64,000 nucleotides of DNA, taken from NCBI GenBank assembly GCA_030695565.1, contig JAUYRZ010000053.1, positions 1-64,000 of the forward strand, in the 5' to 3' direction. Positions 41,304 to 45,537 of this stretch are shown piece after piece. The position numbers and the translations under genes are program-made. The DNA comes from Archangium sp. (GTDB taxonomy: Bacteria > Myxococcota > Myxococcia > Myxococcales > Myxococcaceae). The notes under the pieces were generated by a model, which had not been told where the DNA came from, did no database searches, and saw only the letters and a list, made by a program, of their open reading frames with translations. The first letter of the stretch is position 1; every line of letters starts with the position of its first letter.

Positions 41304-43409
41304 ATGATCGTCGGCACTGCGGGACACGTCGATCACGGCAAGACCTCGCTGGTGAAGGCGCTGACCGGCATCGACACCGATCGACTGCCTGAAGAAAAGC
41401 GCCGCGGCATCACCCTCGAGCTCGGTTTCGCGCACCTGGAGTTGCCATCGGGCGCGACGGTGGGCGTCATCGATGTGCCCGGCCACGAACGGTTCGTGAA
41501 GGCGATGGCCGCGGGCGCAGGCGGCGTCGACGTCGCGCTGCTGGTGATCGCCGCCGATGAAGGCGTGATGCCGCAGACGCGCGAGCACGTCGACATCTGC
41601 TCCTTGCTCGGGGTGCGGAAGGGCGTGTTGGTGGTGACCAAGGCGGATCTCCTGCCGGGCCTGGGCGAGGGCTGGCTCGAGCTGCTCGAGGCCGACCTGC
41701 GTTCGTTGGTCGAAGGCACACCCTTCGAAGGCGCAGCGCTGGTGCAGGTGAGCGCGAAGTCGGGCGAAGGGCTCGACCCGTTGCGCGTGGAGATCGATCG
41801 CCTGGTCGCCCAGCTCGCAGCCGAACCCGACGCCGCGCGGGGCCCCGAGGCGCCGGTGTTCTTGCCCATCGATCGCGCCTTCAGCGCCAAGGGCTTCGGC
41901 CTGGTGGTGACCGGTACGCTCTGGTCGGGGCGGCTGACGCCGGAAGACGAAGTGAGCCTGCTGCCGGGTCTGGCGGGGCCGATGCGCGTGCGCGGGCTGC
42001 AGGTGCACGGCGCGAGCGTGACCGCGGCGGTGGCGGGAAATCGGGTGGCGGTGAATCTGCCCGAGCTCGAGGTGGCGCAGGTGCGGCGGGGCCTCGTGCT
42101 CACGCGGGCCGGGGAGTTGCCCGAAACGAAGGTGCTCGACGTCGAGCTCTCGTTGTTGCCTTCGGTCGAGACGCCGCTGGGCAGGCGCAGCCGGCAGCAG
42201 GTGACGTTGGGTACGGATCAGGTCGAGGCGGTCATTCGGCTGGTCGACGTCGATTCACTCCGGCCCGGCGAGCGCTGCTTCGCGCAGCTTCGGTTCTCCG
42301 CTCCGGTGGCGGCCATTCCCGGTCAGCGGTTCATTCTGCGCGGCACTCAGGTGATCGAAGGGCGGGGGGCCACGTTGGCGGGCGGCCGGGTGCTGTTGGT
42401 CAATCCACCCCGGCGGCGCGCAGGGGCCGCGGCGCGGCTGCAGCGTTTTGCCGAAGCGCCGCTGGAAGAGCGGCTGCGCTTGTTGCTCACCGAAGCGGGC
42501 TACGGCGGGCTCGACGAAGCAGGCCTCTTCGCGCGCGCGCAGTCGACGCAGAAGGAAGTCGCCAAAGCCCTGGAGCGCGCCTCCGCTCGCGGGGCGGTGG
42601 TGCTGGTCGATCGCGGAGCGGAGCCGGTCCACCGAGACGGTGGACCCGCCAGGCTCGGAGCGGAGCGGAGAACTGGCCAAGGCGAAGCGACCCGGGAAAG
42701 CGGAGCGGAGCCGGTCCACCGGGACGGTGGACCCGCCAGGCTCGGAGCGGAGCGGAGAACTGGCCAGGGCGAAGCGACCCGGAAACGAGAAAATCGCCGC
42801 TTCATCGCCAGCGAGGTGCTCAAGGCGCTGGAGGCGCGCGCGTTGGCCCGGCTGGAGGCGTTTCACGTGGCCAGCCCCGAGCGGGCGGGCATGCCGCGCG
42901 AAGAACTCCGTCAACGGCTGGGTGAACCACCGGAGCGGGTCTTCGCGCGCGTGGTGTTGGTGCTGCTGGAGAGCAGGAAGGTCGAGCGGGTCGATGAGCT
43001 GCTCCGTCTTCCCGGGCGGGGCCGCGCGTTCACCGAGGCCGCGGCCGCGCACCAGACGCAGCTGGCGGCGTTGCTCGAGGCCAGACAGCTCTCCCCGCCC
43101 ACGCTGCTCGAGCTGGAGTCGGCCCTCCGCCTTCCCCCTGCACGCGTCATCGAGCTTGGCCAGTCGCTCGTTTCCCAGGGCCAGGCCGTTCGTGCAGGCG
43201 AGCTCTTCTTCGCGAAGAGCGCCATCACCGCGCTGCACGGCAAGCTGCTGACCCACTTCGCCACGCACGAGAAGCTCAGCACGCAGACCTTCAAGGAGCT
43301 GACCGGTCTCTCCCGGAAATTCCTCATCCCGCTCGCCGAATATTTCGATCGCGAGAAGGTGACCCTGCGCGTGGGCGATGAGCGGTTGCTCCGGCGCAGC
43401 AAGGGCTGA
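41304..43409 (+). CDS. selB: Selenocysteine-specific elongation factor SelB
   Basis: SelB carries selenocysteyl-tRNA to UGA codons marked by a SECIS hairpin. The GTPase domain shows GHVDHGKT (residues 7-14), DVPGHE (57-62) and the TKAD base-recognition motif (112-115). Domains 2 and 3 and the C-terminal winged helices follow. At residues 437-495 a 29-residue segment is repeated twice in tandem; it is encoded by repeat DNA and looks foreign to the winged-helix region. It keeps frame, and downstream sequence remains family-like, so the gene is probably functional. No selenoprotein gene or tRNA-Sec was seen in the window. Confidence 0.92.
42614..42787. repeat. Two 87-bp tandem palindromic elements inside selB
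   Basis: Copies at 42614-42700 and 42701-42787 differ by only a few bases. Each has a perfect nine-base stem, GGTCCACCG with CGGTGGACC, around a three-base loop. At 87 bases (29 codons) each insertion keeps the frame. A related solo element occurs at 45463-45537. Confidence 0.9.
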
Positions 43410-45055: not shown

Positions 45056-45172
45056 GCATCGGGCAGACGATGGCTGAAGGAGGTTCCCCCCCACCACTTC
45101 AGCAGCCTCGCCCGAGATGAGGCCAAGAAGACCCGCGGCTCGACGCGAACCTGCGCCGAGTCGCCTTTTTTT
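45056..45172 (+). ncRNA. Pxr-like small RNA, copy 1
   Basis: The predicted RNA of about 117 bases starts 12 bases after the -12 box and ends in an intrinsic terminator. Bases 45069-45111 match 45331-45373 of the second copy closely. This shared core forms TGAAG/CTTCA pairing around a loop of TTCCCCCCC, followed by AGCAGCCTCG; both copies also share AAGAAGACCCGCGG before the terminator. The position between a sigma54 regulator gene and nuoN is, as I remember it, that of M. xanthus Pxr, an sRNA that blocks fruiting-body development when food is present. The C-rich loop could pair with G-rich ribosome binding sites. The identification as Pxr is inference. Confidence 0.7.
45135..45172 (+). terminator. 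Intrinsic terminator of sRNA gene 1
   Basis: A stem pairs 45135-45142 with 45157-45164, plus three more pairs above one mismatch, and is followed by seven Ts at 45166-45172. Confidence 0.85.
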
Positions 45173-45316: not shown

Positions 45317-45440
45317 CCGACGCAGCAGTCGATGTGTTGAAGGGGTTCCCCCCCACCGCTTCAGCAGCCTCGCTGTGTTGGCAGTGCAAGAAGACCCGCG
45401 GCCCGGTGCTCCATCACGGAACACCGGGCCGCCTTCTTTT
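45317..45440 (+). ncRNA. Pxr-like small RNA, copy 2
   Basis: About 124 bases long, it has the same plan as copy 1: a short leader, the conserved hairpin with C-rich loop (45337-45366), a variable stretch, AAGAAGACCCGCGG and a terminator. The variable stretch (45374-45385) differs from copy 1, while the core differs at only a few places. This suggests an old duplication with selection on the hairpin. It has its own promoter-like sequence, so the two could respond differently. No open reading frame with a ribosome binding site fits the region. Confidence 0.7.
45398..45440 (+). terminator. Intrinsic terminator of sRNA gene 2
   Basis: A perfect eleven-base stem (45398-45408 with 45422-45432) is followed by CTTCTTTT. 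It is one of the strongest terminator signals in the window. Confidence 0.9.
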
Positions 45441-45462
45441 GGGCCTGGGAAACCGGAGCAGA

Positions 45463-45537
45463 GCCGGTCCAGCGGAACGCTGGGCGATCGCAGCGGAAGA
45501 TGCGCCGAGGCGGAGCGACCAGCAAAACGGCCCCTCC
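45463..45537. repeat. Solo copy related to the selB insert
   Basis: GAGCCGGTCCAGCG-GAA-CGCTGG keeps the layout of the selB element (palindrome around a three-base loop, then a GGCGGAGCGACC tail) but has diverged. It lies between sRNA gene 2 and the nuoN stop. Confidence 0.65.

Follow-up and report, generated by a model that had tools for sequence, protein, structure and literature searches.

An in-frame repeat array in selB

The window, a 64,000-nucleotide stretch of an Archangium sp. genome (GCA_030695565.1, contig JAUYRZ010000053.1; genome G000), carries on its forward strand an intact open reading frame at 41304..43409 that encodes a 701-residue SelB, the selenocysteine-specific elongation factor. 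The identity of the protein is backed by Pfam, which returns GTP_EFTU, SelB-wing_2 and SelB-wing_3, and by PDB comparison; the GTPase domain and the C-terminal winged helices are both present. Within this frame lie two tandem units on the plus strand, each of 87 nt and 29 codons and each belonging to subfamily W of the family described below: unit 1 at 42613..42699 (covariance-model match 42615-42694, 82.0 bits) and unit 2 at 42700..42786 (42702-42781, 79.2 bits). The units repeat with a period of 87, are 97% identical across 86 bases, differ mostly by synonymous changes and together code for 58 additional SelB residues (29 + 29). The in-frame duplication reported in a preliminary description of this DNA is thus real; its coordinates, given there as 42614-42787, are one base off, and the array occupies 42613-42786.

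In unit 1, helix P1 (42618..42688, +) closes the element by pairing GC-GGA-GCC (42618-42625) with GGC-GAA-GC (42681-42688) around a GNA/GNA internal loop. Hairpin P2 (42626..42646, +) reads GGTCCACCG-AGA-CGGTGGACC, with arms at 42626-42634 and 42638-42646, and helix P3 (42648..42677, +) pairs GCCAG (42648-42652) with CTGGC (42673-42677) below the tip GC-GGA-GC (42660-42666). The P2 hairpin of unit 2, GGTCCACCG-GGA-CGGTGGACC, is found at 42713..42733 (+). As had been claimed, the nine-base inverted repeat, here with a three-base loop, is perfect, and it is so in both units.

A structure model of SelB (mean pLDDT 80.9) places the insert, residues 438-496, between wing strands 432-435 and 499-502, with a pLDDT of about 32. 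By this model the insert lies in the wing loop of winged helix 1 and is predicted to be disordered, which agrees with the winged-helix placement first suggested. SelB containing the insert presumably still works.

How is this site occupied in relatives? In an alignment of some two dozen SelB relatives, G005, a family-free genome of the same genus, has a clean empty site (..VVLVDR|EARRF..), and G003, also of the genus, has three 29-residue units at the identical codon, 261 nt compared with 174 nt in the window. No insert was found in the other aligned SelBs, so the segment is not a conserved part of the protein; in G004 the search gave no match of SelB strength. Despite the shared codon, the G000 and G003 units belong to different subfamilies, and the G000 units have their nearest counterparts among W copies at other places in G003 (90%), not among the G003 selB units. 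Because of this difference, simple vertical descent does not account for the selB arrays, and we reject it as their sole source; conversion between copies, replacement, or repeated insertion at one place could lie behind the switch.

A repeat family in part of one genus

The unit is dispersed well beyond selB. A DNA search of G000 returned about 25 clear further copies, and covariance model R1 found 68 mostly strong family matches there (E<=0.1), which disposes of the possibility that the genome holds no other copies. At least 49 matches were obtained in each of the congeners G003 and G004, and none in the 93 other genomes of the Myxococcaceae family set; likewise, in a class-level set of 147 genomes the matches came from G000, G003 and G004, with none in the 144 others. 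Among 84,980 species genomes, from which the window's own may be missing, a strict pattern matched only Archangium sp. C12_metabat.bin.17_sub and Myxococcales Bin_62_4. The assemblies are drafts, for the most part MAGs. Within the genomes tested, the family is limited to part of one genus. These dispersed copies, together with the empty G005 and three-copy G003 selB sites, bear out the earlier suggestion of mobile repeat DNA.

The related solo element that had been noticed near 45463 is a copy at 45455..45522 (+; 63.7 bits, E 4e-9), intergenic between convergent genes and with part of P3 deleted; it belongs to a different subfamily, A. The long intergenic region upstream of it holds two similar stretches, 45066-45150 and 45335-45415 (about 83% over 83 nt), with GGTTCCCCCCCACC...TTCAGCAGCCTCG.

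A three-helix fold with strand polarity

Three helices form on the strand read here: P1, which joins the ends, P2 and P3. Over 55 copies, standard pairs fill 91.6% of pair cells, and 147 cells have changed on both sides. The covariation score of 0.352 compares with 0.156 in shuffled controls and with no more than 0.053 when the partners are slid. P2 occurs in about 19 stem sequences with pairing kept, and its loop is GNA in 127 of 134 cases. The tip of P3 is GC-GNA-GC, and the 3x3 internal loop of P1 mostly has GNA facing GNA. P1 is fully Watson-Crick in two variants, CCT/AGG (array L218) and TGC/GCA (L222); nearly all copies have G.A mismatches at the P1 ends, full complementarity being confined to the L218 and L222 types. 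Folded one at a time, the sequences have unremarkable energies (z -0.1 to -3.1). The palindrome of the preliminary description stands, but the element is more than nine palindromic bases: it is a three-helix single-strand structure.

Which strand folds, and as which nucleic acid? The P2 cells comprise 924 Watson-Crick pairs, 52 G.T and 2 A.C, and the excess of G.T over A.C identifies the folded strand as the one read here and not its complement. Selection thus acts on one polarity of a single strand, either single-stranded DNA or RNA. GNA mini-hairpins of the d(GCGAAGC) type are exceptionally stable in DNA (PMC4686876), and the invariant GC-GNA-GC tip and the GNA/GNA loops are motifs of this kind, which favours folded single-stranded DNA over RNA. 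The alternative, that the folded strand is a small structured or retro-copied (SINE-like) RNA and that the selB units are mRNA elements, is possible and in our view the less probable of the two: the wobble polarity and the three-helix junction would also suit an RNA, genic copies carry the folded strand as the sense strand, and there are 5'-truncated copies with intact 3' ends. Besides the DNA-type motifs, it is opposed by subfamily D, in which the folded strand is antisense to the adjoining gene, and by the window itself, where Rfam 15 gives no match at gathering score.

Subfamilies and their coding niches

Subfamily A (83-85 nt) is mainly intergenic, often at the centre of CCCTCTCCC...GGGAGAGGG repeats. 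Copies inside a CCCTCTCCC...GGGAGAGGGTCGGGGTGAGGG repeat were seen at L193, L194, L196, L201, L232, L234, L237, L241, L244 and L246-L248, and a copy at L206:6908-6986 is inside a CCCTCTCCC repeat, close to the N-terminal end of a miaA-like gene. Subfamilies B/W and C have 87 nt per unit and include in-frame genic copies: in selB (two species), in a TadE-like gene (three species) and in further genes. Seven of 27 B/W sites are in frame with coding flanks on both sides, compared with one of 65 A sites (p 6e-4). The B/W/C consensus has no stop codon in any of the six frames, where about three would be expected at such GC, an only mildly unusual property. In the TadE-like gene, so named from the reading QATVELALGSIVFV alone, the units follow just after the start codon (L208:3057-3416, L249:2966-3136 and L141:5315-5394); they are of subfamily C in G000 and G004 and of W in G003, a switch of subfamily like that at selB.

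Subfamily D (86 nt) occupies another position. With gene starts taken from a home-made caller, D adjoins the start codon of an opposite-strand gene at 26 of 38 sites, versus three of 94 for the others (p 3e-15). On the gene strand, the start codon is repeated beyond the element, and at about 17 sites a 29-codon frame runs through the element to a TGA that overlaps the ATG of the gene; in D arrays the ATGA or GTGA overlap recurs at every unit. The base after the ATG or GTG is A at 23 of 27 sites, against a background of 0.37 (p 4e-7). Start-codon loci with 29-codon leaders that end in ATGA or GTGA are L192, L207, L212-L222, L226-L229, L235 and L254-L271. The D leaders may be translated and coupled to the genes that follow. 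We know of no described equivalent of this subfamily, and limited literature searches of open-licence papers gave nothing matching start-codon-targeting repeats.

It is about an even chance, in our judgement, that the subfamilies are fitted to different reading constraints, one by stop-free 87-nt read-through and the other by 86-nt entry at start codons with a coupled 29-codon leader, unit by unit.

Insertion, target duplication and the search for a mobiliser

For 14 D sites the two flanks were joined and looked for in five congeners; in most cases the alignment runs without a break over the junction in one relative or more. Seven sites were then examined at the level of single bases. At L219, for example, where the orthologous site is empty, the relative reads GGCTCATGAGTCTC and the window's genome GCTCATG-TTC[element]ATGAGTCTC; L220, a sense-oriented D copy, has a clean empty site in G003. 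These empty sites confirm insertion. They also bear on whether selection keeps the D copies as regulatory leaders (translational-coupling devices) or whether they are neutral insertions in places that tolerate them. Such a role would fit the start-codon abutment and ATGA overlap, both far above background, and the relay of ATGA or GTGA from unit to unit in arrays; we nonetheless consider it unlikely, since the empty sites show that the genes manage without D units, and the genes struck by D are unrelated.

A 3-nt match between the 5' flank and the tail of the element is present at 13 of 36 D sites and eight of 65 others (p 0.002 each against shuffling); the numbers are small, and the offset is the best among several that were tried. 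TCAT is the preferred short target on the 5' side in subfamily D, present at 20 of 36 sites. An IS605 reading of the D sites, in which the tail is part of the element and no duplication exists, is weakened by CAC on both sides at the GTG-start loci L218 and L227 and by TTA on both sides at L253.

Short target duplications above chance are what an ordinary MITE of a DDE transposon would leave, with double-stranded terminal inverted repeats and a 3-bp duplication, and P1 does join the two ends, with full complementarity in two variants. The main subfamilies nevertheless do not end in inverted repeats (GGAGCGGAGCC vs GGTCGCTTCGCC; by eye, about 7 of 12 positions). Recognition of the ends by a DDE enzyme would not call for the internal covariation of the P2 and P3 stems, and no autonomous parent transposon was noticed in the flanks of the copies. 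We regard a MITE origin as improbable.

A Y1 transposase (PF01797) of the IS200/RAYT type is missing from G000 and G004. The sole Y1/RAYT-type transposase found in the carrier genomes is at L148:190-855 in G003, in a 2-kb stretch that carries no copy of the element, and we reject it as the mobiliser on both counts. In IS200/IS605-type single-stranded DNA transposition a short target duplication is not expected; the indicated duplication and the lack of an IS200/RAYT transposase in G000 and G004 count against the explanation proposed below, as do the unremarkable folding energies, the different subfamilies at the shared selB codon, the draft state of the genomes and the home-made calling of gene starts.

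Relation to known repeats

The closest parallels are with short repeats that are tolerated inside genes. Rickettsia palindromic elements (RPEs) are likewise short palindromic selfish DNA, found in frame in unrelated genes, where they encode a peptide of some tens of residues, and also between genes. In-frame insertion into unrelated genes is seen in the present family at selB, at further genic sites and at the N-terminus of the TadE-like gene. It differs from RPEs in its lineage, in having a three-helix fold in place of a simple palindrome, in its exact 87-nt in-frame tandem arrays and in its start-codon subfamily. RPE-4 and RPE-6 carry a CGTC tag at one end (PMC3733652); the family has none, and ends GGAGC...GACCCAGA. 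CGTC-tagged REPs also lack a dedicated transposase and also occur inside genes (PMC3733652), but the present elements are untagged, larger and folded into three helices.

REPs and REPINs mobilised with RAYT (the GTAG family) resemble the family in being high-copy, structured, single-strand-polar and mostly extragenic with some genic copies. They differ in that the present element is about 83 nt long, with three helices and a short target duplication; moreover, no GTAG foot tag appears in the family alignments, RAYT is absent from two of the three carrier genomes, and no cognate repeat-flanked Y1 transposase was found. MITEs are also non-autonomous, short and dispersed, with probable target duplications, and in-frame MITE fusions have been reviewed or reported (PMC10969869), but the main subfamilies here have no clear terminal inverted repeats, and no parent transposon was noticed in the flanks. 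Finally, IS200/IS605-type elements share the folded single strand of one polarity and the preferred short 5' target (TCAT in subfamily D); the family differs from them in having no transposase gene, an indicated short target duplication and a full three-helix element. We do not assign the family to RPEs, REPs or MITEs: end tags, transposase and inverted termini were looked for and not found.

The preliminary description held that in-frame palindromic insertions are known mainly from Rickettsia. This is too narrow, as Di Nocera et al. describe REPs inside genes of several species (PMC3733652). Among them is recB of two Xanthomonas species, with different REPs at about one site (PMC3733652), a case that resembles selB. 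By analogy, the family appears to work as RPEs and intragenic REPs do, as short structured selfish DNA tolerated by proteins. The selB insert alone is thus of an already known type; what is new is the three-helix fold, the frame-matched subfamilies and, above all, the start-codon subfamily.

A proposed mobile element compatible with translation

We propose, with a probability of about 0.75, that the insert in selB consists of two tandem units of a non-autonomous mobile element, restricted to this lineage, that is folded, copied in trans and kept where translation remains intact. A plain, immobile tandem duplication kept as a SelB-specific adaptation, with which the mostly synonymous differences and the G003 in-frame array at the identical codon would agree, is already refuted by the dozens of related copies in and out of genes and by the insert-free SelBs of G005 and other family members.

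The proposed element would consist of about 83 nt plus a short target duplication of about 3 nt, and the family is most likely a non-autonomous selfish element. One strand folds into a junction of three helices with GNA motifs at its core, and a separate enzyme, most likely acting on this folded single strand, would copy it to new sites in trans. Insertions would then persist where translation stays intact, the readability of the element being what makes it tolerable. In its B/W form (87 nt, stop-free consensus) it reads through in frame, in SelB as a predicted disordered loop of the wing. The D form (86 nt) inserts at start codons and copies the start codon, and would be read as a 29-codon leader whose stop overlaps the gene start.

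DNA that spreads by copying has here been repeatedly accommodated by the protein-coding code, and the family is a clear example from nature of selfish DNA with which translation can coexist. If its leader is translated, the start-codon subfamily would represent mobile DNA that maintains the expression of its host through an inserted, coupled reading frame. At selB, a single site is found in empty, two-copy and three-copy states across three species of one genus, with 58 to 87 additional residues in the winged-helix wing. Finally, we note that SelB of another congener, G002 (locus L052), has unrelated insertions of 68 and 11 residues; the 68-residue insertion has the look of a translated REP (PHPRPQGRE, PHPDPLAQ) and lies at a position different from that of the window's insert.
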